This document shows positions 3,932-48,860 of a DNA stretch of 64,000 bases, in pieces. The first letter of the stretch is position 1; every line of letters begins with the position of its first letter. The translations under genes and the position numbers were made by a program. Under the pieces are notes generated by a model. That model was not told the origin of the DNA and made no database searches. It was given only the letters and a program-made list of their open reading frames with translations. Source of the DNA: Sipunculus nudus (lineage: Eukaryota; Annelida; Sipuncula; Golfingiida; Sipunculidae); the NCBI GenBank assembly GCA_026874595.1, contig CM049318.1, forward strand, positions 44,310,456 through 44,374,455, written 5' to 3'.

Positions 3932-3968
3932 AACAAGTGACCCATGGGTCATGACGCTCAGCTGACTG
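3932..3968 (+). repeat. Family A 5' head palindrome and subterminal repeat
   Basis: TGACCCATGGGTCA is a perfect 14-bp palindrome preceded by AACAAG and followed by GCTCAGCTGACT. That 12-mer is the inverse of the 3' hairpin arm. About seventeen copies of this head occur in the window. Confidence 0.85.
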
Positions 3969-4114
3969 GGAAGAGATTCGCAAAAGGAAATTTTATCATC
4001 AGAATGGTAGTATATACCCATTCAACTGAAGCATCAAACAGATTAACCAACAGGCCAAGATTTAGTCTGTATTTATATATCTCAAAAATAGAGAAAAATG
4101 TGTAAACTTTTAAA

Positions 4115-5282
4115 ACTAGAATACAGGTAACCGACAAGTGACTACATGTATCTGCCAAAATCAGATAGTGAGGCATGGATTGAGTGGCAAGGGGAAATAG
4201 AGTGAGGTATGTTGCATATTAGCATGGATGTCTGCAGCCTAAATGTGTATGTAGGTTGTGCCACCTACCACAAATCCAGAAAGCTGTCCAAGTTGTATAC
4301 ACCTGCAAAATTTTAGGCAGAAAAGTCAAACCACTACATGTATATGAGCGATTTTTGCCCATGGCAGACAAACAGACAAACACTGTGCAAAAATCTTTGC
4401 AGGTAACCCCTCCAGTTTTGTGTATGATAAAGACCTATGTGAGATCTAAACACATGCACAATTTTGGCCGAATCGGTCAAATGGTTCCTGAGATATGAGC
4501 TTGGATGTGTCCAGCGTTAACTAGAATGTAGGTGGCGCCACCTGTCATAAAATCAAGAAAGCTGTCCACGATGTATAAACCTGCAAAATTTTAGGCAGTT
4601 ATGTCGAACCACTACAGAGAAATGAGTGATTTTAGGCCACGGCAGACTAACAGACAGACCCTGTGCAAACATTGTTACAGGTGGCGCCACCATTTTTTGT
4701 GTATGTTACAGAGCTATCAAAGGGCTACATTTGTATAAATTTTATTTCCTGATCGGTCAAACGGTTCCCTAGATATAAGCTTGGATGTCATCAGCGTGAA
4801 CATGAACGTAGGTGGCGCCACCTGTCATAAAATCAAGAAAGCTATCCTGGATGTATACACATGACGTATTTCAGGTGAATTAGTCAATTCACTGCAGAGA
4901 TATGAGTGATTTTAACCCAAGGCAGATGAACAGATGGACACTGTGCAAACATGGTTACAGGTGGCGCCACCATTTTTTGTGTATGTTATAAGCAATCCAA
5001 GGGCTACATTTGTATCAATTTTATTTCCTGATCGGTCAAACGGTTCCCGAGATATGAGGGTTTATGAGTGGAAACAGACCCACAAATGGACACTGGATAG
5101 AGAGAAAAGGTCAGAGGTCAATGCAAATTGGTTAGGCACCAGTTCACATGTGACCCGATAATAGGTGTAAGTTTGGGAAAAATCGGTCCATTAGTCTCCG
5201 AGGAGCTCTCTGGAAACGAACGCCGCCACAGAGGAATTCTGTCAAAAACATAGTATCCGCTAAACTTCGTTTTGGCGGATAC
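4115..5282 (+). mobile_element. Complete family B element nested in A
   Basis: Starts ACTAGAATACAGG, with a degraded head hairpin and subterminal GTATCTGCCAAAA. About two ~278-bp B monomers follow, each containing two GGTGGCGCCACC-type palindromes. It ends with a hairpin whose arms are GTATCCGC (5253-5260) and GCGGATAC (5275-5282), then AAAAA. The outer GTATCCGCC / GGCGGATAC pair is the subterminal inverted repeat of the family. Confidence 0.8.
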
Positions 5283-7230
5283 AAAAATACAGGTGGCTCC
5301 ACCAGTCTGCAGAAACTAATAAAAACAATTAATGGTCAATATCCATGCAAAAAATCATGGTGATCTCTGCATTAGTTGTTCAGATACTTCAGTTTTTGTA
5401 TCAAATTGTCCATTATTCTGAGGGATACTTCGGAGTCCTATAGCTTGAAGGATATGGGTAACAGAGACCTAATTTCAAGTTTCCACAGGCACCTTTCATG
5501 GGCCTCCTTGCATGACAAGAATGAAGATTCTAGGTCCAGTTGTTGCGATTTGTACCTTGTTGACAGATAACCACATCTTTAAAGGTCTCAAAAAAAAAAA
5601 ATTCGTAAAAATTTGATAAAAAAATAGAGGTGGCACACCCAGTCTGCAGAAACTGATGGAACAGCTCATGATCAATATGTATGCCGAAAATCATGACCAT
5701 CAGTATTGTAGTTATTGAAATACTGCAGTTTTTGTATCAAATTTTCCATTATTCTGGGGGGGGGGGTATTTTGGACCCATACAGCTTAAAGAATATGGGT
5801 AACAGAGACCTAATTTCAAGTTTCCATGGAGACTTTTCATAGGTCTCCCTGTGTGTCAAGAATGAAGATTCTTGGTCCAGTTTTTATGATTTGTGCCCTG
5901 TTAACAGATGTTCATATCTTTAAAGGTCTCAAAAATACAGAAAAATTTCGTAAAAAAAAACGAACAAATACAGGTGGTGCCACCAGTCTGCAGAAACTTA
6001 TGAAACACTCCAATTATGGTTATCTCTGCATTAGTTGTTCAGATACTTTAGCTTTTGTATCAAATTTTCCATTATTCTGAGCTGTACTTTTGAGTGCCAT
6101 AGCTCAAAGGATATGGGTAACAGAGACCAAATTTCAGGTTTCCATGGAGACTTATCATGGGTCTCCCTGTGTGTCAAGAACGAAGATTCTAGGTCCAGTC
6201 CTTACGATTTGTACCCTGTTGACAGATAACTACATCCTTAAAGGTCTCAAAAATGGAGAAAACAATTTGTGAACATTGAAAAATACAGGTGGCGCCACCA
6301 GTCTGCACAAACTGATGAAACATCTCATGATCAATATGTATGTCGAAAATCATGACCATCAGTGATGTAGTTAATGAGATATTGAAGTTTTTGTATGAAA
6401 TTTTTGACTATTCTGGGGGGTAATTTTGGGCCCCATAGCTCGAAGGATATGGGTAACAGAGACCTAATTTCTAGTTTCCATGGAGACTTTACATAGGTCT
6501 CTCAGTGTGTCGAAAATGAAGATTCTAGGTCCAGTTGTTAAGATTTGTGCCACACAAACAGATGACAGCATCCTCAAAGGTCTCAAAAATAGAGGAAAAA
6601 ATCGTAAAAAATCAAACAGTACAGGTGGCGCCACCAGTCTGCAGGAACTGATCAAACATCTCATGATCAATATGTATGCCAAAAATGAAGACCATCAGTG
6701 ATGTAGTTATTGAGATATTGAAGTTTTTGTATGAAATTTTTTACAATTTGGGGGGGTACTTTGGGGCCCCATAGCTCAAAGGATATGGGTAACAGAGACC
6801 TAATTTCTGGTTTCCAAGGAGATTTTTCATGGACCTCTCAGTGTGTCAAGAATTAAGATTCTAAGTCCAGTCTTTATGATTTGTGCCTTGTTAACAGATG
6901 TTCACATTTTTAAAGGTCTCAAAAATAGAGAAAAAAATTCGTAAAAAATCGAAAAATACAGGTGGCGCCACCAGTCTGCAGGAAGTGATGTAACATCGCA
7001 TGATCAATATGTATGCCAAAAATCATGACCATCAGTCAAGTAGTTGATGAGATATTGAAGTTTTTGTATGAAATTTTTGTCTTTTCCGGGGGGTACTTTG
7101 GGGCCACATAGCTCGAAGGATATGGGTAACAGAGACCTAATTTCTGGTTTCCAAGGAGATTTTTTATGGACCTCTCAGAATCCCAAGTTACAAGGTTCTA
7201 GGTCCAGCAGTTACGATTTGTGCCTGGTTA
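5283..7230 (+). repeat. Six tandem ~336-bp family A monomers
   Basis: Units begin at the AGGTGG of the palindrome near 5291, 5628, 5972, 6287, 6623 and 6960, with spacings of about 337, 344, 315, 336 and 337 bp. Each unit carries GGTGGCGCCACCAGTCTGCA or a variant, a G-run followed by TACTTTGG, GATATGGGTAACAGAGACC, and TTACGATTTGTGCC. The last unit is cut by the microsatellite. Peptides of 60-80 codons recur because the units are similar, but each is closed by stops at the same places. Confidence 0.85.
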
Positions 7231-7263
7231 ACGGACGGACAGACGGACAGACGGACGACGGAC
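7231..7263 (+). repeat. (ACGG/ACAG)n microsatellite of element A
   Basis: ACGGACGGACAGACGG-type units lie between the last monomer and the 3' hairpin at 7279-7309. Confidence 0.85.
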
Positions 7264-7311
7264 AAAGAGTGATCGCTATAGCTCAGATGACTTTCAGTCA
7301 GCTGAGCTAAA

Positions 7312-7471
7312 AAATAAACAAAATACGATAGAGTTTTTCAGATGACTGATTATTTGCAAAAAATTTGGTGATGCTGGCTTCTGCCGTTTTTGAGTTAGCT
7401 ATGGTTAACGTACAGACGACGCACAACAGACGTCGCCGCACCATCGCATAAGCTCACAGGTTCGCTAAAAA
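7312..7471 (+). mobile_element. Family C 3' end resuming after nested A
   Basis: Continues the C host as AATAAACAAAATACGATAG and finishes with the C terminus. CACAGGTTCGC (7455-7465) is the reverse complement of GCGAACCTGTG in C heads, and TAAAAA follows. This terminus recurs near 9757, 12101, 24431, 44702, 49003, 53821 and 63939. Confidence 0.8.
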
Positions 7472-7913
7472 TCTGTGTCCTCGCTCACACATCAAATTTT
7501 TGTATTGAGTGCTTGTAAGCCTCACTGGGAGGGAGGCTTACAACATAGGCTTTGTGGTATTGACATATGTGGGCAAAACAGGAAGCTGACGGTCATCCTC
7601 AAGTGGAAATAGACGCAAAGCCCATTCGAGTGAAACATATTCTTTATCTGATGTATAAAAGGAACTGATGAATTCTGTCATGTGTATAACCTCATAATCA
7701 GAATTGATAAATTCTTATGATAATGTCTGGGGGCCAAATTCTTGACTGGACTTCGTTAATATGCTGGCATAACTGACTGTCACAGTGATGCCGTGCAAGG
7801 TTGATGGCAAACTCTGTGGCATTTAGATAAGTATGTGGATGTATCACTCTTAAAAATATATTCACTTTATGTTTGTTATTTCTCATCATCTATATGTTCT
7901 TTTAAAATAATAT
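7472..7913. other. Intervening sequence, no gene seen
   Basis: About 440 bp with no match I can see to the repeat families and no convincing reading frame. One minus-strand open frame at 7698-7889 lacks any recognisable motif. Confidence 0.4.
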
Positions 7914-7950
7914 AACAAGGCCTACAGGCCTAATGCAAACCTGTGAAATG
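7914..7950 (+). repeat. Family C 5' head
   Basis: AACAAGG is followed by AGGCCT-AC-AGGCCT (two 6-bp palindromes forming one inverted repeat), then TAATGCAAACCTGTG. The last part is a variant of GCGAACCTGTG, the inverse of the C 3' terminus. Further C heads lie at 10771, 21019 and 27081. Confidence 0.75.
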
Positions 7951-8086
7951 TTTGGGAGTATGAATGGAGGTTTATTTTTAAAATTTAATATTGATCCTTT
8001 AAAGTCCTGCATATATACCTTAGTCATTATGATTTCAGCAAAATGGACATTCCGGACCTGCAAGTTTCAGACTAGGACATTTTAAA

Positions 8087-8940
8087 ACTAGAATATGGGT
8101 AGTCGACAAGCGACTATGTGTATCCGCAGAAATCAGAGTGATACAGTTGAAGTGAGGCATGGATTAAGTGGTAAGGGTAATAGAATGAGGTGTGTTTCAT
8201 ATTAGCATGGATGTCTGCAGCGTAGACGTGAATGTAGGTGGTGCCACCTGTCAAAAAATCGAGAAAGCTGTCCAGAAGTATAAACCTAGATATGAGCTTG
8301 GATGTATGCCAGTAAATGTGAATGTAGGTGGCGCCACCTGTCATAAAATCGAGAAAACTGTCCAGGATGTATAAACCTGCAAAATATCAGGTCGTTAAGT
8401 CAAACAACCTCTGCTGAGATATGAGTGATTTTATCCAAAGGCAGATGAACAGATGGATGCTGTGCATAAATGTTTGCAGGTGGCGCCACCAGTTTTGCCT
8501 ATGATGAAGAGCTGTGTGAGATCTTATACACATGCAAAATTTTGGCCCAATCGGTCAAACGGTTCAAGAGATATGAGCTTGGAAGTCTGCAGAGTAAACG
8601 TGAATGTAGGTGGCTCCACCTTTCAGAAAATCGAGAAAACTGCCCAGGATGTATAAACCTGCAAAATTTCAGGTGGCTAAGTCAAACCACTGCTGAGATA
8701 TGAGTGATTTTATCCAAAGGCAGATGAAAAGATGGGTGCTGTGCATAAATGGTTCCAGGTGGCGCCACCAGTTTTGCCTATGATGAAGGGCTATCTGAGA
8801 ACTATACACATGCAAAATTTTGGCCCAATCGGTCAAACGGTTCTAGAGATATGAGCTTGGATGTCTGCAGAGTAAACATGAATGTAGTGGCGCCACCTGT
8901 CATAAAAATCAAGAGGTCAACCAAAAATGAGGGCACTGCA
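8087..8940 (+). mobile_element. Family B 5' end and tandem B monomers
   Basis: Head ACTAGAATATGGG with hairpin GTAGTCG-ACAAG-CGACTA, followed by ~278-bp monomers. Half-units alternate 'GTAGGTGGCGCCACCTGTCA' and 'GCAGGTGGCGCCACCAGTTT' palindromes. The B tail is missing, because the sequence continues into the TCTAGAC block at about 8941. Confidence 0.75.
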
Positions 8941-9299
8941 GTTCATATGTGACTTGATGATTAACCTGATTCGCTTAAAATGCAAACAAAGTTTTTTCAA
9001 ACAGTTGAAAGATATAGTTCCAATAATCTGGGAATTCTGCATATAAACATTATGTCTAGACGTCTAGACATCTAGACACATCAGCAAGTTGTCAAATCTG
9101 TTTTCAAATACAGAAAGCCTTTTTCAATTGGCTCCAATGCTTTTTCAAAGCTGTATTTACCCAATGTATTCTTATAAAACTGGTGGAACCCTACCATAGA
9201 ATAATTCTTGTAAAGTTTAAACCAATCAGCTTAACAGTTTCATCATAAATCAGTGTATAAGCTTGAAGAGTTTAAAACTACATTTTCGCTTGTAAAAAA
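8941..9299 (+). repeat. TCTAGAC block, copy 1
   Basis: A module that joins the B 3' region to C monomers. It runs from 'gcttaaaatgcaaac' through clustered TCTAGAC palindromic units (9051-9080) to 'acagaaagcctttttcaa' and 'gtaaagtttaaaccaatcag'. Related copies lie at 11240-11640, 28300-28760, 52020-52145 and 62400-62880. Confidence 0.65.
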
Positions 9300-9786
9300 C
9301 ACATCAATGTAGGTGGTGCCACCAATACCTCAAAATCAGACATGACATATGTGACAAACATTGGTATAAAATTTGGTGATTATACCTCTAGCCGTTTCTG
9401 AGAATTTAAGTTTAGTATGCTTTTTTGCACAGATGAGTAAGTTCAACTTCCTGTGACTCGGCCAAAAATCTCCAAACTGGAACCAATCGAACAAACTTGA
9501 GAGAGATTGTTCCAAGGAACATTTCTGTGAAATATTGGACAATTTGGCTGGACAGTTTCGGAGAAAATTTTTTTAAAGGTTTTTCAGCTTTTTCTCTTTA
9601 AAATCTAAATTAATGCAGATACCCAATAATAAGCTCCAGGGCATCAAGTTTCACATGTGACTAATTCTTACATGTAATTTGGAGCTGCTAGCTCCCACGG
9701 TTTCTGACTTACAGCCATGGACTGCGGAAAGCCAGCCCTGGACGGCCGACGGTGCGCCATCGCATAAGCTCACAGGTTCGCTAAAA
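9300..9786 (+). mobile_element. Family C monomer and 3' terminus
   Basis: A C monomer starting at GTAGGTGGTGCCACCAATAC is followed by 'cccaataataagctccagg' and a C terminus ending CACAGGTTCGCTAAAAA. The uninterrupted AATAATAAGCTCC at about 9625 is an empty-site reference for the insertion at 63198-63792. Confidence 0.75.
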
Positions 9787-10770: not shown

Positions 10771-11040
10771 AACTAGGCCTACAGGCCTAATGCAAACCTG
10801 TGCAAAGTTTGGGAGTATAAATGAAGGTTTATTTTTTAAATTTAATATTGACCCTCTTATGTCCTGCATATGTACCTTACCAGTTAGTCATTATGATTTC
10901 AGCATATTGGACGTTTGGAACCTGCACGTTTCGGACTACAACATTTTAAAACTAGGATGTATCAGTCAGGATATTTCAGATATGTTTCTTTAGCCAGAGA
11001 GGATTATTGGGACTGATGAACAGACAATTTGGCAGCATTG

Positions 11041-12125
11041 TTTAAATGAAGAACATTTTAAAATGTTTTTCAGCTTTTTCCCTATAAAATCTAAGAAAAT
11101 GCAGTTAGCCAAGAAATATGCAAAATCCGATAGAATTTTTTAGATGACTTATTTTTTGCAAAAAAATTTGGTGATGCTAGCTCCTGCCCTTTTTGAGATA
11201 TCTATCGCCACACAATTGCACAAGCTCATAGATTCGCTAAAAATGCAAACCAAACAGTTGAAAGATATAGTTCCACTAGTTCTAATCTGGGCATTCTGCA
11301 TCAAGACTATGTATCTAGACGATGTGTTACATCGTCTAGACATCAGACACAGCCAGGTCAGTTGTCATGGTGATGTCTGGACCTCACCTGGTTGAACTGA
11401 GTGACCTCTTGACTTGCCATGTTGAAACTTGGTGATGTAGTCAAATCTGTTTTCAAACACTGAAAGCCTTTTTCAATTGGCTACACTGCTTTTTGAAAGC
11501 TGCATTTACCCAATCTATTCTTATAAAACTGGCAGAACCCTACCATAGAATAATTTTTGTTTAGTTTAAAACAATCAGCTTAACAGTTGCATCATAAAAC
11601 AGTGTATAAGCTAGAAGAGACTAAAATTACATTTTTGCTTGTAAAATCAGATCAATGTAGGTGACGCCACCAATACCTCAATTTCAGGTATGACTTAAGT
11701 GACCAACATTGGCATAGAATTTGGTGATGATAGCTCAAGCCATTTCTGAGATTTTAATTTAAGTGTGCCTTTTTGGACAGATGACAAAGTTCAACCTCCT
11801 GTAACTCGGCCAAATATCTCTGAACTGGAATCATTCGTACAAACTTCAGAGAGATTGTTCCAGGGATCATTTCTGTAAAATATTGGACATATTGGCTGGA
11901 CAGTTTCAGAGTAGAAGATTTTTAAAGCTTTTTTGAGCTTTTTCCCAATAAAATCTTAGAAAATGCAGTTAGAAAAAAAATAAACAAAATAAAATGACTG
12001 ATTATTTGAAAAAAATTTGGTGATGCTAGTTCCTGCTGATTTTGAGATAGCTATGGTTAATGTACAGACAAGGCATGGACTCACAACGCCGACCATCGCA
12101 TAAGCTCACTGGTTCGCTAAAAAAA
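11041..12125 (+). mobile_element. Family C modules with TCTAGAC block and C terminus
   Basis: C sequence including GCAGTTAGCC is followed by a truncated C terminus near 11210-11243, a TCTAGAC block (about 11244-11640), a C monomer from about 11655, GCAGTTAGAAAAAAAATAAA (near 11966), and a C terminus ending at about 12125. The intact A-run after GCAGTTAG serves as the empty-site reference for the insertions at 3932 and 45280. Confidence 0.65.
11314..11340. repeat. Perfect 12-bp hairpin in the TCTAGAC block
   Basis: TCTAGACGATGT (11314-11325) and ACATCGTCTAGA (11329-11340) pair perfectly around a 3-nt loop. Other copies of the block have different TCTAGAC arrangements at this position. Confidence 0.9.
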
Positions 12126-12319: not shown

Positions 12320-13196
12320 ACTAGAATATGGGTAGTCGACAAGCGACTACTTGTGTCCGCCGAAATCAGAGTGGGACGGGTGAAGTGAAGCATGGATTGA
12401 GTGGCACAGGGAAATAGAGTGAGGTGGATTGCATATTAGCATGGATGTCTGCAGCCGAAATGTGTATGCAAGTGAGGCCACGGTGCCACAAATTTTGAGT
12501 ATCATTAAGAGCCATGTGAGATCTATACACATGCAAAAATTCAGGGGAATATGTCAAACCAGTCCTGAGATAAAAGCCTGAATGTCTATAGTGTAAACAT
12601 AAATGTAGGTGGCAACACCTGCCACAAAATCAAGAAAGCTATCAAAGATGTATAAACCTGCAAAATTTTTGGCAGATAAGTCAAACCACTGCCGAGATAT
12701 GAGTGATTTTATCCCATGGCAGACAAACAGATGGACTCTGTGCAAAAATGGTGGCAGGTGGCCCCACCAGTTTTGCATATGATAAAGAGCTATGTGAGAT
12801 CTATACACATGCAACATGTCAAAAGGTTATGTCAAACCAGTCTTGAGATATAAGCCTGTATGTCTGCAGCCTGAATGTGAATGTAGGTGGCACCACCTGT
12901 CATAAAATCAAGAAAGCTATCCAGGATGTATACACATGCAAAATTTCAGGTGGATAAGTCCAACCAATGCAGAGATGAGTGATTTTATCCAAAGGCAGAT
13001 GAACAGATGGACACTGTGCAAAAATGGTTGCAGGTGGCGCCTATATTTTTAGTGTATGTTATAAAGCTATCTAAGGGCTACATTTGTGAAAAATTTTAGC
13101 CTGATCAGTCAAACGGTTCCCGAGATTTGTGGGTTAATGTGTGGAAACAGATGCACAAATGAATGCTGGGCAGAGAGGAAAGGTCAGAGGTCAACC

Positions 13197-15360
13197 AACA
13201 AGTGACCCATGGGTCATGACGCTCAGCTGACTGGGTAGAGATTTGCAAAAGGAAATTTTATCATCTGAATGGTAGTATATAACCATTGAACTGAAGCATC
13301 AAACAGATTAACCAACAGGCTGAAATTGTGTCTGTATTAATATATCTCAAAAATAGAGAAAAAATGCATAAACTTTCAAAAAAAATATAGGTGGCTCCAC
13401 CAGTCTGCAGAAACTAATAAAAACACTTAATGGTCAATATCCATGCAAAGGAGCATGGTTATCTCTGGATTAGTTGTTCAGATACTTCAGCTTTGTATCA
13501 GATTTTCCATTTTTCTGAGGGATACTTTGGAGTCCTATAGCTTGAAGGATATGGGTAACAGAGACCTAATTTCAGGTTTCCACAGACACTTTTCATGGGC
13601 CTCCTTGCATGACAAGAATGAAGATTCTAGGTCCAGTTGTTACTATTTGTACCCTGTTGACAGATATCCACATATTTAAAGGTCTCAAAAATAGAGAAAA
13701 TAATTCGTAAAAATTTGAAAAAAAAATAGAGGTGGCACACCCAGTCTGCTGAAACTGATGGAACACGTCATGATAAATTTTTCATTATTCTGGGGGGGGG
13801 GGGGGGGTACTTTGGAGCCATACAGCTTAATGGATATGGGTAACAGAGACCTTATTTCAGGTTTCCATGGAGATTTTTCATGGGTCTCCCTGTGTGTAAA
13901 GAATGAAGATTCTATGTCCAGTTGTTATGATTTGTGCCCTGTTAACAGATATATTTATATCTTTAAAGGTCTCAAAAATAGAGAAAAAAATTCGAAAAAA
14001 AGCCCGAACAAATACATGTGGTGCCACCAGGCTGCAGAAACTGATGAAACACTCCATGACCAATATCCATAGAAACAATTATGGTGATCTCTGCATTAGT
14101 TGTTCAGATACTTCAGCTTTTGTATTAAATTTTAAATAATTCTGAGCTGTACTTTGGAGTGCCATACTCAAAGGATATGGGTAACAGAGACCTAATTTCA
14201 GGTTTTCAATTAGACTTTTCTTGGGTCTCCCTGTGTGTCAAGAATGAAGATTCTAGGTCAAGTCATTACAATTTGAACCCTGTTGACATATAACTACATC
14301 CTTAAAGGTCTCAAAAACAGAGAAAAAAAATTGTAAAAATTTGAAAAATACAGGTGGCGCCACCAGTCTGCAGAAACTGATGAAACATTTCATGATCAAT
14401 ATGTATGCCAAAAATCATGACCATCAGTGATGTAGTTAATCAGATATTGAAGTTTTGTATGAAATTATTGACTATTCTGGGGGGTACTTTAGGGCCCTAT
14501 AGCTCAAAGAATATGGTTTCCATGGAGACTTTTCATAGGTCTCTCAGAATTTCAAGAATGAAGATTCTAGGTCCAGTTGTTATGATTTGTGCCCTGTTAA
14601 CAGATGTTCACATTTTTAAAGGTATCAAAAATAGAGAAAACAATATATAAAAAATCGAAAAATACAGGTGGCACCACCAGTCAGAGGGAAACTGATGAAA
14701 CATCTTATGATTAATATGTATGCCAAAATCATGACCATCAGTGATGTAATTAATGAGATATTGAAGTTTATGTATGAAATTTTTCACCATTCTGGGGGGT
14801 ACTTTGGGGCCCCATAGCTCAAAGGATATGGGTAACAGACACCTAATTTCTGGTTTCCATGGAGACCTTTTCATAGGTCTCTCAGAATGTCAAGAATGAA
14901 GATTCTAGGTCCAGTCTTTATGATTTGTGCCATGCAAACAGTTGTTCATATTTTTTAAGGTCTCAAAAATAGAGAAAAAAATTTGTAAAAATCGAAAAAT
15001 ACAGGTGGTGGCACCAGTCTGCAGAAACTGATGAAACATCTCATGATCAATATGTATGCCAAAAATCATGACCATCAGGGATGTAGTTAATGAGATATTG
15101 AAGTTTTTGTATGAAATTTTTCACTATTCTGGGGGGTACATTGGGGCCCCATAGCTCGAAGGATATGGGTAACAGAGACCTAATTCCAGGTTTCCAAGGA
15201 GATTTCTCATGGACCTCTCTGGATGTAAAGTAAGAAGATTCCAGGTCTAGTGGTTACGATTTGTGCCCTGTTAACGGACAGACGCCCGGACGGCCGGACG
15301 GATGACGGACAAAAGGTGATCCCTATAGCTCAGCTGACTTACAGTCAGCTGAGCTAAAAA
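13197..15360 (+). mobile_element. Uninterrupted family A element (reference copy)
   Basis: Complete at 2.16 kb. It has the head palindrome and subterminal, a ~165-bp leader running directly into the first monomer, and units starting at about 13389, 13730, 14016, 14352, 14666 and 15003. A microsatellite (about 15279-15305) and the 3' hairpin at 15326-15356 follow. The hairpin arms TAGCTCAGCTGACT and AGTCAGCTGAGCTA are a perfect 14-bp match. It inserted into the A-run of B at GTCAACC-AAAAA-TGAGG. No coding capacity. Confidence 0.85.
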
Positions 15361-15464: not shown

Positions 15465-15493
15465 GGGGGGGGGGGGGGGGGGGGGGGGGGGGG
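15465..15493 (+). repeat. 29-bp poly-G tract
   Basis: Uninterrupted G homopolymer inside the distal part of the nested B element. Homopolymer length in an assembly is approximate. Confidence 0.85.
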
Positions 15494-23439: not shown

Positions 23440-23950
23440 AGTTCAGCTTCCCATAACTCAGCCAAAAATCACTGAACCAAAACTATTTGAACAAACTTGA
23501 ATTATCAACTTCTAAGGATAATTGTGTAAGATTTAAGAATTTGGCCCAGTGGTTTTTGAGAAGAAGATTTTTGTAGCCACTTCGCTAACATGGGCTGTTA
23601 TGGCATATGACTAAATTCAGCTTCCAATAACTCAGCCAAAAGTCACTGAACTGAGACCATTTGAACAAACTTGAACTATCAACATCTAAGGATAATTTAT
23701 GTGTGAGAGTTAAGAATTTGGCCCAGTGGTTTTTGAGAAGAAGATTTTTGTAGCCACTAAGCTAAAATGGGCTTTTATGGCATATGACTAAATTCAGCTT
23801 CCCATAACTTAGCCAAAAGTCACTGAACTGAGACCATTTGAACAAACTTCAGAAAGCACTACCCTAGGATCATTTCTGTGCGATATTAAACAATTTGGCC
23901 ATTTTGTTTCAGAGAAGAAGTTATTTGTAGCTGTCAGTATGATACGGGCA
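23440..23950 (+). repeat. ~175-bp tandem monomers within family C
   Basis: Three units start at 'ataactcagccaaaa' near 23453, 23627 and 23804. Each holds 'ccatttgaacaaactt' and 'ggtttttgagaagaag'. Related units occur at 3240-3560 and 53160-53480. Confidence 0.8.
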
Positions 23951-25068
23951 TTGATGCCCCCCGTACAAAAAAGGCCTATGCAGGTGGTGCCACCAATACC
24001 TCAATTTCAGATATGACTCGTGTGAGCAAAATTGGCATAAAATTTGGTGATGATAGCTCAAGCCATTTCTGAGATTGTAATTTTAGTAGCTTTTTTGGAC
24101 AGATGACTATGTTCAACTTCCTGTAACTCGGCCAAAAATCACCGAACTTAAACCATTCGAACAAACTTGAGAGAGATTGTTCCAGGAATCATTTCTGTAA
24201 AATATTGGAAAATTTGGCTCAACAGATTCTGAGAAGAAGATTTTTTAAGCTTTTTTAGCTTTTTCCCTATAAAATCTAAGAAAATGCAGTTAGCCAAAAA
24301 ATAAGCTAAATCCTATAAAGTTTTTTAGATGACTAATTTTGTGCATAAAATTTTGTGATGCTAATTCATGCCGTTTTCAAGATAGTATGGGTTAACGTAC
24401 AGATGCCGGACGCCGGACGACGCCACACCATCACATAAGCTCACAGGTTCGCTGAAAACGTGCCATGGTCAAAGTTGGGCAAAATTTAAGGTACTAATTT
24501 TTTATTTTTGCTATTATTTTAAAAAATTAAAAAGATTTTCATCTAATTTTGGGTACAGAATTTAACTTTGATTAATTAAAGTTATATTACTGGGAAAAAA
24601 GTCCTTAGCTTTAACATGTTTTGTGTTAAGTGATCAAATATCTTTCCTGATTTTTTACAAAATGCATTATGTTTGAGCCTATAACCTTTTTTAATTATAT
24701 AATACAGACCTAATTTCTGGCATGTATATAGGAACTATATAGAGGAATATTAATGGTAAATATGAGGAAAAACAGATGAGTGGTTTTGATATTAGGTAGT
24801 CCTGAAGTGTGAAAATAGGTTTTTAATAAAAAATTGAGGTTTTTCCTTTTACTTCTCAAAGGAACGAAGTCGCAAAGACCCAGTTTTCGGCTTGGTAGTA
24901 GATCTTGGGGACATCTAACATTATGCCGAATTTTGGATTCCTATGTCTTACCGTTTCAAAACGTGCCACATCTACAGACGGACGGACGGATGGATGGACG
25001 GACGGACAGACGACGGACAATGGACCACAACTATAGCTCAGATGACTTATAGTCAGCTGAGCTAAAAA

Positions 25069-28300: not shown

Positions 28301-28760
28301 CAGCAGTTCACATGAGACCTCAAAATAAACCCGATTCGCTTAAAATGCAAACCAAGTTTTTTCAAACAGTTAAAAGATATAGTTTCAAGAATCTGGGAAT
28401 TCTGCATCTACATATTGTGTCTGGACGCTGTGTCTAGACGTCTAGACACATTGTCTAGACACTCCCCCAGAGCCAGGTCAGTTGCCATGGTGATGTCTGG
28501 ACCCCACTTGTTTGTACTGAGTGACCTCTTGACTTGGCTGCTGAAACTCAGCATGTGGTCAAATCTGTTTCAAATACAGAAAGCCTTTTTCAATTGGCTA
28601 CAATGCTTTTTTAAAACTGTATTTACCCAATCTATTCTTATAAAACTGGCAGAACCCTACCATAGAATAATTCTTGTAAAGTTTAAACCAATCAGCTTAA
28701 CAGTTTCATCATAAATCAGTGTATAAGCTAGAAGAGTTTAAAATTACATTTAAGCTTGTA
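28301..28760 (+). repeat. TCTAGAC block
   Basis: Several TCTAGAC palindromic units at about 28431-28468 sit between the B-derived 'tgagggcgcagcagttcaca' and the C-proximal 'acagaaagcctttttcaat'. Confidence 0.7.
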
Positions 28761-30190: not shown

Positions 30191-33100
30191 AACAAGTGAC
30201 CCATGGGTCATGACGCTCAGCTGACTGGGAAGAGATTCGCTAAAGGAAATTTTATCATGAGAATGGTAGTATATACCCATTCAACTGAAGTACAAACAGA
30301 TTAACCAACAGGCCAAGATTTAGTCTGTATTTATATATCTCAAAAATAGAGAAAAAATGTGTAAACTTTAAAAACTAGAATACAGGTAGCCGATAAGTGA
30401 CTACTTGTATCCGCCAAAATTAGGGTGGAACGGTTGAAGTGAGGCATGGATTTGAGTGGCAAGGGGAAATGGAGTAAGGTATGTTGCATATTAGCATGGA
30501 TGTCTGCAGCCTAAATGTGTATGTAGGTTGTGCCACCTACCACAATTCCAGAAAGCTGTCCAAGTTGTATACATATGCAAAATTTTAGGCAGAAAAGTCA
30601 AACCACTACATGTATATGAGTGATTTTAGCCGACGGCAGACAAACAGACAGACGCTGTGCAAAAATGGTTGCAGGTGGCCCCTCCAGTTTTGTGTAGGAT
30701 AAAGACCTATGTGAGATCTATACACATGCAAAATTTTGGCCCAATCGTTCAAACGGTTCCCGAGATATGAGCTCGAATGTCTGAAGCATAAACTAGAATG
30801 TAGGTGGCGCCACCTGTCATAAAATCAAGAAAGCTAACCAGGATGTATAAAACTGCAAAATTTTAGGCAGATATGTCAAACCACTGCCGAGATATGAGTG
30901 ATTTTAACCCAAGGCAGATGAACAGATGGACACTGTGCAAACATGGTTACAGGTGGCGCCACCATTTTTGTGTATGTTATAAAGCAATCAAAGGGCTATA
31001 TTTGTATAAATTTTACTTCCTGATTGGTCAAACGGTTCCCGAGATATGAGGGTTTATGTGTGGATCAGACGCACAAATGGATGCTGGATAGAGGGGAAAG
31101 GTCAGAGGTCAACACAAATTGGTTAGGCACTAGTTCACATGTGACTAGATAATTAGTGTAAGTTTAGGAAAAATCGGTCCATTTTTCTCAGTGGAGCTCT
31201 CTGGAAACAAACGTTGCGGGGGCGGAGGAACCCGGTCAAAAACATAGTATCTGCAAAACTTCGTTTTGGAGGATACAAAAATACAGGTGGCTCCACCAGT
31301 CTGCAGAAACTAATAAAAACACATAATGGTCAATATCCATGCAAAGAATCATGGTGATCTCCGCATTAGTTGTTCAGATACTTCAGCTTTTATATCAAAT
31401 TGTCCATTATTCTGAGGCTTCTATAGCTTGAAGGATATGGGTAACAGAGACCTAATTTCAAGTTTCCACAGGCACTCTTCATGGGCCTCCTTGCATGACA
31501 AGAATGAAGTTTCTAGGTCCAGTTGTTGCAATTTGTACCCTGTTGACAAATAACCACATCTTTAAAGGTCTCAAAAAATGAGAAAAAAAATTAGTAAAAA
31601 TTTGAAAAAAATAGAGGTGGCGCACCCAGTCTGCAGAAACTGATGGAACAGCTCATGATCCATATGTATGCCGAAAATCATGACCATCAGTGTTGTAGTT
31701 ATTGAGATATTGAAGATTTTGTATGAAATTTTTTACTACTCTGGGGGGTGCTTTGGGGCCCCATAGCTCTAGGGTTGGGTAACAAAGACCTAATTTCTGG
31801 TTTCCATGGAGACTTTTCATAGGTCTCTCAGTGTTTTGAGAATGAAGATTCTAGGTCCAGTCGTTACGATTTGTGCCATGCTAACAGATGACAGCATCCT
31901 TAAAGGTCTCAAAAATAGAGGAAAAAATCGTGAAAAAATCAAACAATAAAGGTGGCGCCACCAATCTGCAGGAACTGATGATACATCTCATGATCAATAT
32001 GTATGCCGAAAATCATGACCATCAGTGATGTAGTCATTGAGATAATGAAGTTTTTGTATGAAATTTTTGACTACTCTGGGGGGGTACTTTGGGGCCCCAT
32101 AGCTCAAAGGATATGGATAACAGAGACCTTATTTCTGGTTTCCAAGTAGATTTTTCACGGACCTCTCAGTGTGTCAAGAATTAAGATTCTAGGTCCAGTC
32201 TTTACGATTTGTGCCTTGTTAACAGATGTTCACATTTTGAAAGGTCTCAAAAATAGAGAAAAAAATTCATAAAAAATCCAACGATACAGGTGGCGCCACC
32301 AGTCTGCATGAAGTGATGACAAATCTCATGATCAATAGTTATGCCACAAATCATGACCATCAGTCAAGTAGTTAATGAGATATTGAAGTTTTTGTATGAA
32401 ATTTTTTACTTTTCTTGGGGGTACTTTGGGGCCCCATAGCTCAAAGAATATGGGTAACAGAGACCTAATTTCTGGTTTCCAAGGAGACTTTCCATAGGTC
32501 TCTCAGTGTATCGAGAATGAAGATTCTAGGTCCAGTTGTTACGATTTGTGCCACGCAAACAGATGACAGCATCCTTAAAGGTCTCAAAAATAGAGGAAAA
32601 AATCGTGAAAAATCGAACAATACAGGTGGCGCCACCAGTCTGCAGGAACTGATGGAACATCTCATAATCAATATATATGCCAAAAATCCTGACCATCAGT
32701 GATGTAGTTATTGAGATATTGAAGTTTTTGTATGAAATTTTTTACTTTTCTTGGGGGTACTTTGGGGCCCCATAGCTCAAAGAATATGGGTAACAGAGAC
32801 CTAATTTCTGGTTTCCAAGGAGACTTTCCATAGGTCTCTCAGTGTGTCGAGAATGAAGATTCTAGGTCCAGTTGTTATGATTTGTGCCACGCAAACAGAT
32901 GACAGCATCCTTAAAGGTCTCAAAAATAGAGGAAAAAATCGTGAAAAATCGAACAATACAGGTGGCGCCACCAGTCTGCAGGAACTGATGGAACATCTCA
33001 TAATCAATATATATGCCAAAAATCATGACCATCAGTGATGTAGTTATTGAGATATTGAAGTTTTTGTATGAAATTTTTTACTACTCTGGGGGGTACTTTG

Positions 33101-33995
33101 GGGCCCCATAGCTCGAAGGATATGGTTAACAGAGACCTAATTTCTGGTTTCCAAGGATATTTTTCATGGACCTCTCAGTGTGTCAAGAATTAAGATTCTA
33201 GGTCCAGTCTTTACGATTTGTGCCTTGTTAACAGATGTTCACATCTTGAAAGGTCTCAAATATAGAAAAAAAAATTCGTAAAAAATTGAATGATACAGGT
33301 GGCGCCACCAGTCTGCAGGAAGTGATGGAACATCTCATGACCAATATGTATGCCAAAAATCATGACCATCAGTCAAGTATTTAATGAGATATTGAATTTT
33401 TTGCATGAAATTTTTTACTTTTCTGGGGGGTACTTTGGGGCCCAATAGCTGGAAGGATATGGGTAACAGAGACCTAATTTCTGGTTTCCATGGAGACTTT
33501 TCATAGGTCTCTCAGTGTTTCGAGAATGAAGATTCTAGGTCTAGTTGTTACGATTTGTGCCTTGTTAACAGATGTTCACATTTTTAAAGTTATCAAAAAT
33601 AGAGAAAAAAATTCGTAAAAAATCGAAAAAAACAGGTGGCGCCACCAGTCCTCAGGAACTGATGAAATATCTCATGATCAATATGTATGCCAAAAATCAT
33701 GACCATCAGTCAAGTAGTTAATGAGATATTGAAGTTTTTGTATGAAATTTTTTACTTTTCTGGGGGGTACTTTGGGGCCCCATAGCTCGAAGGATATGGG
33801 TAACAGAGACCTAATTTCTGGTTTCCAAGGAGATTTTTCATTGACCTCTCAGAATGTAAAGTTACAAGATTCTAAGTCCAGCGGTTACGATTTGTGCCAG
33901 GTTAACGGACAGACGGACAGACGGACGGACAGACGGACGACGGACAAAGAGTGATTGCTATAGCTCAGCATGACTGAAAGTCAGCTGAGCTAAAA
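30191..33995 (+). mobile_element. Second A element with nested B, eight A monomers
   Basis: Same composite as 3932-7311: A head and leader, B at 30374-31276 inserted at the same leader position, then eight A monomers starting near 31285, 31615, 31950, 32288, 32624, 32960, 33297 and 33634. Spacings are 330-338 bp. The microsatellite is at about 33905-33946 and the 3' hairpin near 33961-33991. The units at 32624 and 32960 are nearly identical, which points to recent unit amplification. Confidence 0.85.
30374..31276 (+). mobile_element. Family B element nested in the second A composite
   Basis: Starts ACTAGAATACAGGTAGCC and shares the TACAGG variant with the B at 4115; other B heads read TATGGG or TACGGG. 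It ends in the B terminus (GTATCTGC near 31248 and GGAGGATAC), then AAAAA and an A monomer. Confidence 0.8.
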
Positions 33996-41072: not shown

Positions 41073-42979
41073 AACAAGGGACCTATGGGTCACTGTGCTC
41101 AGCTGACGTTAACCTTGAAGGTAAAAATCTAATATAATATCTAATGGAGATAAATTGTAAGAGGAAGAGGTAATAAAGGCCATGGTTGGTTTATATGATT
41201 GGTTTGTATTGATGAGCAAGAAATTGTTGCAAAAATTATTTTGTGACCTGACCATGTGTTTCCTTCCTAATGTTGAAACTAAAGCATGTGAGCAGTTTGT
41301 GAACAAATGATCTGTACTATTACCATGATCATTAGTTGGTTTTTCGATTAACTGTTGACATTTCAGTAGTTTACACATTTGTTCAATTGAATCTATTTTT
41401 TTATATGATATATATTATTAAATATATATGTATTTTTTTTATGAAATGTATACAGTTGAAATATAGCTAATTAACAACATAAAACAGGGCAAACAAAGCC
41501 TGATCTCAAATTCTGCTGAGGCAGGAAAATAATGAACAAATGTTTGTATTAAATCCTGATTTTTTTATCACATCAATTATTTTCTAAATTAAGTTTATAT
41601 TTCTATACATTTCCAATATAACATATATATTTGAATATAAAAGCTGATTCATAATTCTCAATTGCATCATCATAAATCTCAATCTTGTCAAATAACACCA
41701 TATCATGCATACAAATGTTTATTAATTTTTTACCACAAAAATATATCTTTTAAATCTGTAAAACAATAAATATCTAAAAATAATACTTGATTTAGATTTC
41801 ACAATTTTTAATTGTGTCTTTATTTATCCATAATGGGCTTCATATTTTATAATAATTTAAGCATACTGATGGGTTCATTTATATTTGTTAAAATCATTTA
41901 AAAGAAAATTGATTTCTTTAAAAATGCTACATTACACAACATTGCATCTTCTGGATCACACCGAATTATTTTTTCAAGGAAAGTTTTTGCATATCGGAGT
42001 GGAAACAGCATTACAATTAAGGAGATACAGTGAAAACAATAACAATTACTGCATAACACTTGGTGTGTGGGTTTGCGGGGGGGGGGGGGGGGGGGGGGGG
42101 AGGGGTTGATTGGGGTGGTGATATGAGAATAACTGTACACCTGTCACAGCAGGGGATCTCCCCCAGTGACTGTAACAAATCAGAAACCCTGGCATAGCTG
42201 ACTTCCAGTGACCTGGAGTGGGACCCTGCATCTGTAATCAAAGCATGTGACTACAGAAAAAAATCAATAACTAGCTTAATTTTCAAGCTTTTATTTTCAA
42301 ATTTCAGATTTAGACAAACTAAATATTTATGTTTACATGCTGTGAAAATTAAATCAATGGTGCTTACAGGAATAAAACGTGCCATGGTCAAAGTTGGGCG
42401 AAATTTAAGGTACTGATTTTTTTTATGCTAATAACTTAAAAAATTTACAAAATTCAGATCTAATTTTGGGTAAACAATTGAATCTTAATTAAACATAGTT
42501 ATATACTTGATAAAATAGACTCTAGTTTCAAAATTTTTTTTCATGTAAAGTGAGTTATTATTTTTCCTGATTTTTTACAAAGTCCATTATGTTTGGGCCC
42601 ATAACTTAAAGAATTTATACTTTACAGACTTAATTTCTGGCATGTACATAGGAACTATATAGAGGAATATTTATGGTAAATATGAGGAAAAACAGATGAG
42701 TGGTTTTGATATTAGGCAGTCCTGAAGTGTGAAAATAGGATTTTAATAAAAAATTGAGGTTTTTCCTTAATTTCTCAAAGGAACGAAGTCGCAAAGACCC
42801 AGTTTTCGGCTTGGTAGGAGATCTTGGGGACATCTAACAGTATGCTGAATTTTTGGTTCCTAGGTCTTACGGTTTCAAAACGTGCCACATCTATGGACGG
42901 ACGGACGAACAGACGGACGGACGACGGACAATGGACCACGACTATAGCTCAGATGACTTATAGTCAGCTGAGCTAAAAA
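41073..42979 (+). mobile_element. Complete E element, copy 1
   Basis: 1,907 bp. Head AACAAGGGACCTATGGGTCA with GCTCAGCTGACG, then the E leader (CCTTGAAGGTAAAAATCTAA). A 24-bp G-run lies at 42077-42100. The D body starts near 42378, with a microsatellite at about 42895-42925 and the hairpin at 42945-42975. Five host bases (TACAT) separate it from the F element on its left. Closely similar full copies lie at 45280 and 60505. Confidence 0.85.
42077..42100 (+). repeat. 24-bp poly-G tract in E
   Basis: Lies at the same place as the 31-bp run at 46280 and the 35-bp run at 61478, between the CATAACACTTGGTG and TGATTGGGGT segments. Confidence 0.85.
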
Positions 42980-45279: not shown

Positions 45280-46277
45280 AACAAGGGACCTATGGGTCAC
45301 TGTGCTCAGCTGACGTTAACCTTGAAGGTAAAAATCTAAAATAATATCTAATGGAGATAAAGTGTAAGAGGAAGAGGTAATAAAGGCCATGGTTGGTTTA
45401 TATGATTGGTTTGTATTGATGAGCAAGAAATTGTTGCAAAAAATATTTTGTGACCTGATCATGTGTTTCCTAATGTTGAAACTAAAGCATGTGAGCAGTT
45501 TGTGAACAAATGATCTGTACTATAACCATGATCATTAATTAGTTTTTTGATTAACTGTTGACATTTCAGTAGTTTACACATTTGTTCAATTGAATCTATT
45601 TTTTTGTATAATATATATTATTAAATATATATGTATTTTTTTTATGAAATGTATACAGTTGAAATATAGCTAATTAACAACATAAAACAGGGCAAACAAA
45701 GCCTGATCTCAAATTCTGCTGAGGCAGGAAAATAATGAACACATGTTTGCATTAAATCCTGATTTTTTTATCACATCAATTATTTTCTAATTTAAGTTTA
45801 TATTTCTATACATTTCCAATTAAACATATATATCTGAATTTAAAAGTTGATTCATAATTCTCAATTGTATCATCATAAATCTCAATCTTGTCAGATAACA
45901 CCACATCATGCATACAAATGTTTATCTATTTTTTACCACAAACATATATCTTTTAAATCTGCAAAACAGTATCTAAAAATAATACTTGATTTAGATTTCA
46001 CAATTTTTTATTGTTTCTTTATTTATCCATAATGTGCTTCATATTTCATAATAATTTAAGCATACTGAGGGGTTCATTTATATTTGTTAAAATCATTTAA
46101 AAGAAAATTAATTTCTTTAAAAATGCTACATTACACAACATTGCATCTTCTGGATTACACCTTGAATTATTTTTTCATGGAAAGTTTTTGCATATCGGAG
46201 TGGAAACAGCATTACAATTAAGGAGATACAGTGAAAACAATAACAATTACTGCATAACACTTGGTGGGTTGGGTTTG

Positions 46278-46311
<34 letters not shown>

Positions 46312-47206
46312 GATTGGGGTTGTGATATGAGAATAACTGTACACCTGTCACAGCAGGGGATCTCCCCCAGTGACTGTAACAAATCAGAAACCCTGGCATA
46401 GCTGACTTCCAGTGACCTGGAGTGGGACCCTGCATCTGTAATCAAAGTGAGTGACTACAGAAAAAAAAATCAATAACTAGCTTAATTTTCAAGCTTTTAT
46501 TTTCAAATTTCAGATTTAGACAAACTAAATATTTATGTTTACATGCTGTGAAAATTAAATCAATGGTGCTTACAGGAAAAAAACGTGCCATGGTCAAAGT
46601 TGGGCAAAATTTAAGGTACTGATTTTTTTTTTATGCTAATAACTTAAAAAATTTACAAAATTCAGATCTAATTTTGGGTAAACAATTGAATCTTAATTAA
46701 ACATAGTTATATACTTGAGAAAATAGACTCTAGTTTCAAAATTTTTCATGTTAAGTGAGTTATTATTTTTCCTGATTTTTTACAAAGTCCATTATGTTTG
46801 GGCCCATAACTTAAAGAATTTATACTTTTCAGTACTTTAAATTATATAATACAGACCTAATTTCTGGCATGTACATAGGAACTATATAGAGGAATATTTA
46901 TGGTAAATATGAGGAAAAACAGATGGGTAGTTTTGATATTAGGCAGTCCTGAAGTGTGAAAATAGGATTCTAATAAAAAATTGAGGTTTTTCCTTAATTT
47001 CTCAAAGGAAAGAAGTCGCAAAGACCCAGTTTTCGGCTTGGAAGATAATCTTGGGGATATCTAACATTATGCTGAATTTTGGATTCCTAGGTCTTACGGT
47101 TTCAAAACGTGCCACATCTACGGACGGACGGACGGACGGATGGACGGACGACGGACAATGGACCACGACTATAGCTCAGATGACTTATAGTCAGCTGAGC
47201 TAAAAA
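45280..47206 (+). mobile_element. Complete E element, copy 2
   Basis: 1,927 bp with the same modules as copy 1. The G-run is at 46280-46310, the D body starts at about 46584, the microsatellite lies at about 47119-47156, and the hairpin at 47172-47202. It inserted in the A-run of a C monomer, at the same position used by A at 3932. Confidence 0.85.
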
Positions 47207-47210
47207 ATAA

Positions 47211-48860
47211 ACTAGACGACCATAGGTCGAACGCTTGCCGGAAATCGGAAGTGAAACACAGACAGACAGACAGAACATATTGTCGGTTTTCTATCAATGG
47301 AATGACTCTCAGGGCCATTGCTGAGAATATGTGGCCCGTAGAATGACATATGAGACAAAAGAACAGGCAAGCAGACAAAGCTGACAACAAAAGATGAACA
47401 GACAGACATACTGACTTTGTGAGACAAGATTGACACCAGATGACTTAACCTAGTTATGGAGAAGATTCAAAGGAAGAAAATGAGTTATAATTTATGTAAT
47501 TTAGATTTATAGTTTTGGTGGTATGGCGAATTAATGATATACTTGAGAGGTTCGACAATAGCGCCCTCTAGCGGACATATTAAGAAGACGAAAAATCTGT
47601 TTCGTTTTATTAGTGTATGACATGAGATGTCCCAGTTTCAAAAGGATTCCGTCAAAGCTGTGGCCTGTAGAATGCTATATGTAAGGCGTAAGAACCAGCA
47701 AGCAGGAGAATTTAAGGACAATTGACAAACAGACGGACACACTGACAAAGTGACTCAAGATTGAGTCCAGATGACTACTCCTGGTTATGGAGAAGACTCA
47801 AAGGAAGAGAAAAGCTACAGTTTATGTAACTGAGGTTTATAGTTTTGGAGATATTGCCAAAGCATGATATGTTGGGAGATGTTTGAGTTCAGCACCCCCT
47901 AGCAGTCATATCCGGAAAATGAAAAGTTGGTTTCGAGATATTAATGTAAGACTTAAGATGTAATAGTTTCAAAAGGATTTTTTCAAAACTGTGGCCAGTA
48001 GAATGCTATATGTGAGACGCAAGAGCAAGCAGGCAAATTTGAGGACAACTGACAAACAGGCAGACACACTGACAAAGTGACACAAAATTGTGACCAGATG
48101 ACTACACCAGGTTATGGAGAAGACTCAGAGGAAGAAAATAAGCTATAGTTTATATAATTGAGGCTTATAATTTTGGAGATATGGCCAAATATGATATGTT
48201 GGGGAGGTTCGCATCCAGCGCCCCCTAGCGGCCCTATCCAGAAAATGAAAAAACAAATTCGAGATACTAGGGTAAGACTTGAAATATATCAGTTTTGAAA
48301 AGATTCCTGCAAAACTGTGGCCTCCAGGGCAAGATTAATGAAATCTTGAAATATCTTAATTGATGAGATATCTTACGAGATATTGCAAGACTTTTAATAA
48401 AATCATGTAGTACTAAACAAATGCTACCTAATGCAAAAAACTAGACCTCTCTAGCATTAAATCTGACAAATTAGTCCACTGATTTTCAAATATGAATATT
48501 TTTCCCGAAAATGTGTTACCATGGAAACGGCATATTTGAGGAAGGTACCCACCAGAAGAAAGGCCATTGGATGAGGATTAAAATGAGCTATAGTTCAAGT
48601 AGATACGACTAATAGTTACAAAGGTATGAAGAAAACCCCTTTTGTATACTTTTGATGACCTCGACCTTGACCTTTGACCTATTTGGACTGAAAACAATAG
48701 GGCACCTAGAATTTTGGTTGTCCATCATCTTTGAAAGTTTCAAGGTGATTGTGGCAAAATTGTGGCCAGGAGAGTGCAGACAAACAAACAAACAGACAAA
48801 CAGACATACGCAACTGACCAATATGCTTGCCGAAATCTTTGATTCCGGCAAGCAAGAAAA
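47211..48860 (+). mobile_element. Family H element: fourth family with the same architecture
   Basis: The head hairpin is CGACC-ATA-GGTCG (47217-47229). Subterminal GCTTGCCGGAAATC (47233-47246) follows, then three tandem monomers, an ACAA/ACAG microsatellite (about 48780-48806) and a 3' hairpin. The hairpin arms are GCTTGCCGAAATC (48825-48837) and GATTCCGGCAAGC (48841-48853) around TTT, followed by AAGAAAA. It sits in the A-run of a C host, 4-5 bp from the E element. No sequence is shared with A, B or C, and there is no coding frame of note. Confidence 0.8.
47561..48340 (+). repeat. ~328-bp H monomers with GCGCCCCCTAGCGG motif
   Basis: The motif occurs once per unit: GCGCCCTCTAGCGG at 47561, GCACCCCCTAGCAG at 47892 and GCGCCCCCTAGCGG at 48218, at spacings of 331 and 326 bp. 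Units also share GGTTATGGAGAAGA and AACTGTGGCC. Confidence 0.85.

Follow-up and report, generated by a model that had tools for sequence, protein, structure and literature searches.

In Helentron transposition, Rep nicks the 5' end of the element and helicase and polymerase peel off one strand until the 3' palindrome halts them; the freed strand then joins a T-run. Helentron proteins combine Rep and a PIF1-like helicase with an apurinic-type endonuclease, and some elements carry an RPA-like second gene. The non-autonomous Helentrons (HINEs, the DINE-1/Pearl kind) are described with a plan of T-rich target, 5' subterminal inverted repeat (subTIR), complementary inverted repeat, microsatellite, tandem array, 3' subTIR and 3' palindrome, inserted without duplication (PMC7492417, PMC4067079). 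We analysed a window of 64,000 nucleotides (C13:44310456-44374455, the whole stretch of DNA under study) from the 1.43-Gb assembly of a eukaryote, the sipunculan Sipunculus nudus, in which four repeat families, named A, T2, T3 and H, were studied. These families are very probably HINEs that lie on the minus strand in the window and are moved in trans, A and H by two coding lineages. The structure itself is ordinary: the families are new, the HINE kind is already known. What the analysis adds is an unexpected shared orientation among families and the assignment of coding Helentrons to two satellite-carrying families; the oyster study left the latter link open, its authors being able to relate no autonomous element to their HINEs (PMC7492417).

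The window families resemble HINE/DINE-1 elements in having subTIRs of 11-15 bp that are palindromic or accompanied by a 5' inverted repeat, a 3' palindrome, a microsatellite, central repeats, a T-rich target and, for A and H, coding Helentrons with matching termini (PMC4067079). The subTIR sequences differ, however, and the 3' subTIR lies ~23-31 bp from the element end here (by eye), compared with 38-60 bp in mite HINEs (PMC4067079). With the Cg_HINE/Pearl elements of Crassostrea gigas they share satellite-like arrays between HINE flanks, a GTCY-type microsatellite in the left flank, an array that always points the same way relative to its flanks, and T-rich insertion without duplication (PMC7492417). 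The likeness to Helitron2/FoHeli elements lies in asymmetric terminal inverted repeats and, in some, hairpins at both termini (PMC5148889).

Family A is defined by GACCCATGGGTC / GCTCAGCTGACT, T2 by GTAGTCGACAAGCGACTAC / TGTATCCGCC, T3 by AGGCCTACAGGCCT / AACCTGTG and H by CGACCATAGGTCG / CTTGCCGGAATC. An earlier interpretation of the letters alone (the sequence-only reading) had described several such families; we take A as its A/D/E/F type, and T2 and T3 are names coined here that imply no one-to-one match with its B and C. The features it described are present: in all four families a palindrome marks one end, a subterminal repeat recurs in inverted form near the other, and an A-run and tandem monomers are present, with a microsatellite in some. 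The A palindrome GACCCATGGGTC is exact at 3939-3950 and 13204-13215, among other places, and a hairpin of the type TAGCTCAGATGACT-nnn-AGTCAGCTGAGCTA followed by an A-run occurs at 11 places in the window (arms of 13-16, mostly 14 nt, with a 3-nt loop and one mismatch), with an (ACGG)n-like stretch evident beside every copy except that at 54334. T2 has the hairpin GTAGTCG-ACAAG-CGACTAC inside 12332-12363 plus TGTATCCGCC, and its subterminal repeat comes back in GTATCCGC...GGCGGATAC at 5253-5283. T3 has AGGCCT-AC-AGGCCT and AACCTGTG at 7917 and 10774, the repeat coming back as CACAGGTT at 7442-7467 and elsewhere. H has the palindrome CGACC-ATA-GGTCG at 47217-47229 and a hairpin with 14-nt arms and a 3-nt loop at 48824-48854. 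SubTIRs of about 11-15 bp, inverted near both ends, were found in A, T2 and H, each of which combines a 5' inverted repeat or palindromic subTIR with a 3' palindrome. Those of T3 are weaker (8-9 bp, by eye), and T3 has only the 3' palindrome; the window hairpin search returned no T3 5' hairpin with arms of at least 9. Array periods in the window are 267-280 bp in T2, 331 bp in H and 336-338 bp in A, and a further array at 23442-23931 has a 177-bp period.

Genome-wide counts were made with exact 5'-end patterns, the same pattern read backwards serving as control. The A pattern occurs 19,841 times, that of T3 2,812 times, that of H 1,130 times and that of T2 767 times, each against 0 control matches; because hundreds or thousands of sites face none in the controls, the end patterns are not chance. 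Hairpins, arrays and end patterns thus bear out the shared architecture that had been claimed for several families.

The direction has to be turned round. Read on the reverse strand, each family runs from a T-run through the 5' subTIR (with inverted repeat), microsatellite and array to the 3' subTIR and palindrome, and as reverse complements the window families fit the published HINE/DINE-1 plan, T3 without a clear 5' hairpin. What had been taken for the 5' end is actually the 3' end of the element, and the "extra 5' palindrome" that had seemed attributable to no described family is the ordinary 3' palindrome of Helentrons and HINEs, which looked like a 5' feature owing to the minus-strand position of the elements. 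The supposed 3' hairpin and A-run exist but represent the 5' subTIR and inverted repeat preceded by a T-run; similarly, the microsatellite placed before that hairpin is real but follows the 5' subTIR and inverted repeat.

Helentron-type mobilisation is supported by predicted coding partners, because open frames of this genome with Rep, helicase and endonuclease matches lie between A termini or between H termini. The Helitron-like mobilisation proposed by the sequence-only reading therefore stands in its Helentron form, but with the direction reversed, and the Rep/helicase element with the same termini that it wished to see sought was found for two families, with A ends on C17 and H ends on C8. 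There are 143 matches to Helitron_like_N (Rep) genome-wide, several in frames of more than 2,200 aa; the examination covered the upstream side of 8 loci and the downstream side of 7, with further flanks fetched for some. The A partner carries its Rep match (C17:35630192-35630653) within a 2342-aa frame, with two A 5' ends upstream (1 mismatch each over a 31-place pattern) and an A 3' end with 0 mismatches downstream. Of the 76 strong window matches of the upstream sequence, 73 belong to A arrays, a T2 copy in the same direction lies between the A ends, and no other A end was detected between the flanking ones at the mismatch limits used. A relative at C13:9109249 shares the frame and has a diverged A 5' end (7 mismatches), array matches that fall in A arrays (117/125) and spacer blocks mostly collinear with C17. 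A third frame, at C7:71189229, is followed by the second A-type 3' end (2 mismatches).

The H partner (C8:80139053) has a 2250-aa frame with an H 3' end ~8 kb upstream (4 mismatches in 25) and, downstream, an H 5' end identical to the window H over 32 bp. Both H ends lie on the strand opposite to coding, and the coding direction is, as read here, antisense to the termini. A transposase gene inverted relative to the termini is reported for some Helentrons and FoHeli elements, the latter resembling H in this respect (PMC4067079, PMC5148889). The C17, C8 and C7 frames all match Helitron_like_N (97-114 bits), PIF1 (76-83 bits) and DUF6570. Exo_endo_phos reaches 47 bits in the H partner, above the cut-off, and was not found in the C7 piece searched. 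No endonuclease was found in fungal FoHeli elements (PMC5148889), whereas the coding elements here have one, marginal in A. Accessory domains differ, with OTU in the H lineage (L004) and a herpes-tegument-type domain in the A lineage (L007).

Insertion sites were studied by joining the flanks of five A elements and searching for uninterrupted copies. Two of the five queries, both from family A, matched such copies across the join without duplicated flanks. The element at 13201-15356 interrupts T2 sequence, with uninterrupted T2 copies at 51949-52032, 28245-28319, 5081-5163 and 31071-31153 (four copies align over most of the query, one more partly). The element at 3936-7309 lies in a T3 A-run, with uninterrupted copies at 11069-11162, 24254-24345 and 11933-12012. 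Both junctions share only A/T letters (by eye), and T-rich insertion without target duplication was found in these two family A insertions. The empty sites and the T-run target were observed directly, as were the anatomy, the copy numbers and the termini around open coding frames. Canonical Helitrons (Helitron1) have 5'-TC...CTRR-3' ends and insert between A and T; the A ends are TTTT-AGCTCAGC... and ...GGGTCACTTGTT, in T-runs, and this class was rejected.

Several findings weigh against HINEs moved by two coding lineages. At C13:9109249 no 3' end was found in 7 kb downstream, and at C7:71189229 no A 5' end in 12.6 kb upstream. The Exo_endo_phos match of the A partner is marginal (23.9 bits, Pfam cut-off 24.5). 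The C8 H element spans 20.8 kb; its two ends could come from different H copies, and 75 bp past its 5' end there is another H-type hairpin, a diverged one; among the relatives of the H partner on C11, C13:66 and C3, no clean pair of own ends was found. The 8 Rep loci examined, of 143, yielded no coding partner with T2 or T3 termini. Of the remaining three joined-flank queries, two had no match across the join and the 41077 query matched element and array sequence.

With every enzymatic step drawn from established Helentron knowledge, a trans-acting Rep(HUH)-PIF1 helicase-endonuclease would recognise the T-run and the subTIR/inverted repeat at the 5' end, one strand would be peeled off through microsatellite and tandem array, peeling would stop at the 3' subTIR and palindrome, and the single strand would be joined into a T-run without target duplication. 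A would be served by a sense-coding lineage and H by a lineage with its gene antisense to the termini; T2 and T3 would presumably have partners of their own. Inverted repeats close to both ends and high copy number would also suit foldback elements or miniature inverted-repeat transposable elements (MITEs), which depend on a DDE transposase and are marked by terminal inverted repeats and target duplications. This reading is extremely improbable: the ends are asymmetric, with the subTIR outermost at one end and inside the palindrome at the other, the two informative insertions lack a duplicated flank, and the same ends are borne by Rep/helicase frames. A single Helentron machinery for all four families, as the sequence-only reading had it, appears quite unlikely. 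Architecture and T-run context are alike across families, one A copy of the window contains a T2 copy and the two families recur ~2 kb apart on C1, yet the subTIRs are family-specific, A and H ends surround two coding lineages, the loci examined gave no T2 or T3 partner, and composite A+T2 copies account for the co-occurrence without shared enzymes.

The following elements were mapped in the window:
3936-7309, minus strand: A HINE; 3' palindrome/subTIR 3936-3963, 336-bp array 5283-7232, microsatellite 7234-7264, 5' subTIR and inverted repeat 7279-7309
4127-5283, minus strand: T2 HINE nested in the A element above; 3' palindrome 4127-4158, 280-bp array 4216-5055, 5' subTIR and inverted repeat 5253-5283
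7917-9783, minus strand: T3 HINE; 3' palindrome/subTIR 7917-7945, 5' end 9758-9783 (ends paired by position)
about 8099-8900: T2 fragment nested in the T3 element above (by eye)
13201-15356, minus strand: A HINE inserted into T2 sequence; 3' end 13201-13228, 337-bp array up to about 15267, 5' subTIR and inverted repeat 15326-15356
13390-15267, minus strand: A monomers of 336-338 bp with GGTGGCGCCACC-type sites
27399-28143, minus strand: T2 monomers of 278 bp, two GGTGGCGCCACC-type sites each
31423-33992, minus strand: A array, 337 bp, 7.4 copies; microsatellite 33905-33945, diverged 5' subTIR and inverted repeat 33962-33992
41077-42975, minus strand: A HINE of the GGGACCTATGGGTC subfamily (ends paired by position)
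45284-47202, minus strand: A HINE inside a T3 copy (judged by eye from the flanks)
47214-48854, minus strand: H HINE in the same T3 copy as the A element above (nesting and left edge by eye); 3' palindrome 47217-47229, 331-bp array 47397-48322, microsatellite 48777-48806, 5' subTIR and inverted repeat 48824-48854
60509-62389, minus strand: A HINE (ends paired by position)

Ends in the window, found between 1167 and 63966, were called at set mismatch limits; A and H have near-palindromic 5' hairpins, whose strand was assigned by the better match and the T-run. All 25 of the 5' ends of the four families lie on the minus strand (A 11/11, T2 3/3, T3 10/10, H 1/1), as do the 3' ends of A (16/16), T2 (6/6) and T3 (4/4). 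The A element with T2 inside (3936-7309) recurs at ~2 kb end-to-end spacing, for example at C1 6548785/6551158, and this composite was probably amplified as one unit.

Shared orientation was tested on C1 only (80 kb-38 Mb), with counts that rest on the ends among the matches listed; the pairs are not independent, and the counts are descriptions, not P values. Pairs less than 5 kb apart were left out (there A-A agree in 27/27 and A-T3 in 11/13). The T2-A agreement in these lists was set aside because A (GAA loop) and T2 5' ends, recurring ~2 kb apart, represent a co-amplified composite; T2 motif clusters may still include such composites. At distances of 5-50 kb, about 80-100% of the pairs formed by A, T2 and T3 copies point the same way; this agreement fades by 50-200 kb over most of C1, and a run near the C1 start spans 1 Mb. 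Between 96 kb and 1.146 Mb, 47 of 47 listed A 5' ends (a 1.05-Mb run) and 9 of 9 listed T3 ends are on the minus strand, and the T2 motif sites listed up to 1.08 Mb all have the same direction (50/50). When copies less than 5 kb apart are merged, the first 3.5 Mb hold 84 A clusters with 74 of 83 neighbours concordant and a longest run of 40; 0 of 10,000 sign shuffles reached either the concordance or the run length.

Pairs were sorted into distance bins of 5-10, 10-20, 20-50, 50-100, 100-200, 200-400 and 400-800 kb and 0.8-1.6 Mb. In that order, concordance among all listed C1 pairs is 23/24, 32/37, 120/138, 157/187, 248/305, 375/543, 675/985 and 923/1691 for A-A, and 12/12, 30/31, 45/50, 63/76, 97/127, 180/257, 325/502 and 445/820 for A-T3. 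Beyond 3.5 Mb, the listed pairs give 4/4, 0/0, 12/15, 14/23, 17/33, 47/78, 90/151 and 136/251 for A-A, 7/7, 7/7, 17/20, 19/26, 26/44, 76/113, 105/200 and 181/399 for A-T3, and 0/0, 3/3, 12/14, 6/15, 13/22, 28/48, 40/75 and 76/175 for T3-T3. On this recount, long-range agreement comes mostly from the first 3.5 Mb. Because the range of agreement is shorter beyond that point, typical orientation domains are tens of kb, the C1 start being exceptional.

Different families were also compared with each other. Listed T3 ends agree with the nearest A at 5-50 kb in 31 of 36 cases (12/14 below and 19/22 above 3.5 Mb), and 99 rotations of this test gave a mean of 18.3 and a maximum of 28. T2 monomer clusters agree with the nearest A 5-100 kb off in 36 of 41 cases (first 2.9 Mb of C1), and the T2 5' ends listed agree with the nearest T3 5-100 kb off in 8 of 9. 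Family H does not follow the direction of the other families on C1 (8/14 agree), and two plus-strand H copies lie inside the 1-Mb minus run; the H result speaks against a universal orientation rule. Among the loci compared, no non-Helentron repeat was fit to serve as an orientation control.

IS200/IS605 elements have one catalytic tyrosine. They resemble the present case, by analogy only, in that transposition is single-stranded and element orientation follows chromosomal direction (IS608), and in bacteria they record replication direction (PMC5371812); they differ in being bacterial, and the replication link reported for them is, for the HINEs here, analogy only. It is a tentative proposal, more doubtful than probable, that Helentron insertion here reads local chromosomal direction, with T-runs on an exposed strand (the coding strand or the germline lagging-strand template) as target. 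If true, unrelated HINE families would occupy common orientation domains of tens of kb, exceptionally up to 1 Mb, tens of thousands of copies would preserve a fossil record of the way in which transcription or forks run, and eukaryotes would have an equivalent of IS200/IS605 targeting. Shared orientation would matter more if genome-wide, as the target step of eukaryotic rolling-circle transposons could then be tested against transcription and replication maps. The Helitron passages of PMC5371812 do not mention orientation domains, the word Helitron is absent from the main text of PMC10030826, and the titles and abstract openings of the papers listed, a partial coverage of the literature, gave no report of shared HINE orientation domains.

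That transcription sets the direction, either because elements insert into a coding strand that it exposes or by way of selection within introns, comes close to an even prospect but falls slightly short of it. The evidence comes from dynein heavy chain genes, where 17 stretches within or next to the genes were examined; 13 are bounded by matched exons, and the other 4, outside the listed exons, were treated as probably intragenic. Window-type HINE sequence is sense in 7 of the 8 stretches that hold it, and in 6 of 7 among the 13 between matched exons; base composition does not explain this bias because T-runs and A-runs are nearly balanced (162 T-runs of 5 or more on the coding strand, 139 A-runs). 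The fading of agreement at 50-200 kb beyond 3.5 Mb of C1 is likewise a gene-like scale. Yet only 8 stretches are informative (one-sided binomial P 0.035), one same-direction run near the C1 start reaches 1.05 Mb, and at ten C1 gene loci (all those found within 165 kb of listed A/T3 ends below 38.2 Mb, neighbouring matches merged) the nearest listed A/T3 end, 18-161 kb away, agrees in 5 of 10, at distances that mostly exceed a typical domain. In DEAD-box helicase genes, only three of 22 loci (L027, L028, L041) are on chromosome-size contigs, and 0 of these 3 hold window-type HINE sequence.

Replication could act instead, insertion into single-stranded T-runs of the lagging-strand template recording germline fork direction as in bacterial IS200/IS605. 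The 1.05-Mb run with its agreement among A, T3 and T2, the common direction of different families and the IS608 precedent (PMC5371812) point this way, but outside the first 3.5 Mb C1 is near chance by 100-200 kb (listed A-A pairs, 17/33) and H does not follow, with its two plus copies within the minus run, and we regard the replication account as unlikely. That the pattern stems from self-targeting of T-runs already present, from local hopping or from segmental duplication is rather unlikely: nested insertions into the A-runs of other copies were seen, and some spacing is regular (5,526 bp twice in succession on C2), but the effect holds for pairs 5-50 kb apart and across families. The usual domain scale fits transcription better and the 1-Mb run fits replication better; since the long-range agreement comes mostly from the first 3.5 Mb of C1, replication was weighted down and transcription and self-targeting up.

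The families had been called unrelated, which is true of their termini but not of the A, T2 and T3 monomers, which share the palindromic 12-mer GGTGGCGCCACC (27 exact sites in the window, for example 4531, 6288, 8327 and 53547). The string TGTAGGTGGCGCCACC occurs 30,801 times in the genome, against 0 in the backwards control. The GGTGGCGCCACC motif ranks 12 of 323 windows for conservation in A, 9 of 267 and 12 of 269 in T2, and 83 of 368 in T3, and appears well conserved within monomers, not uniquely so. It presumably resembles the CTCF core, as a candidate only; the papers listed by a literature search on this reading gave no support, and a search with the exact strings of three motifs returned only one unrelated paper.

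Some minor observations concern the same elements. G-runs of 29-35 bp, uninterrupted or nearly so, occur at 15465, 42077, 46280 and 61478, three of them within A-type elements. At or near the start of the Helentron frames lie tandem repeats with periods of ~63 bp in the C17/C13 type (L007/L008) and ~69 bp in the C11/C13:66 type (L003/L006), both multiples of three. Listed H 5' ends cluster at C1:64.3-67.3 Mb, an interval with several Rep matches, and at C2:3.52-3.56 Mb. A tandem repeat with ~140-180 bp offsets, unmatched to the window, is common to the distant loci L025:6923-8558, L041:2132-3480 and L012:6804-6996. Finally, small contigs (C61-C90 and others) carry bacterial-type DEAD-box matches in near-identical sets, which suggests co-assembled bacteria, symbiont or contaminant, of several strains.

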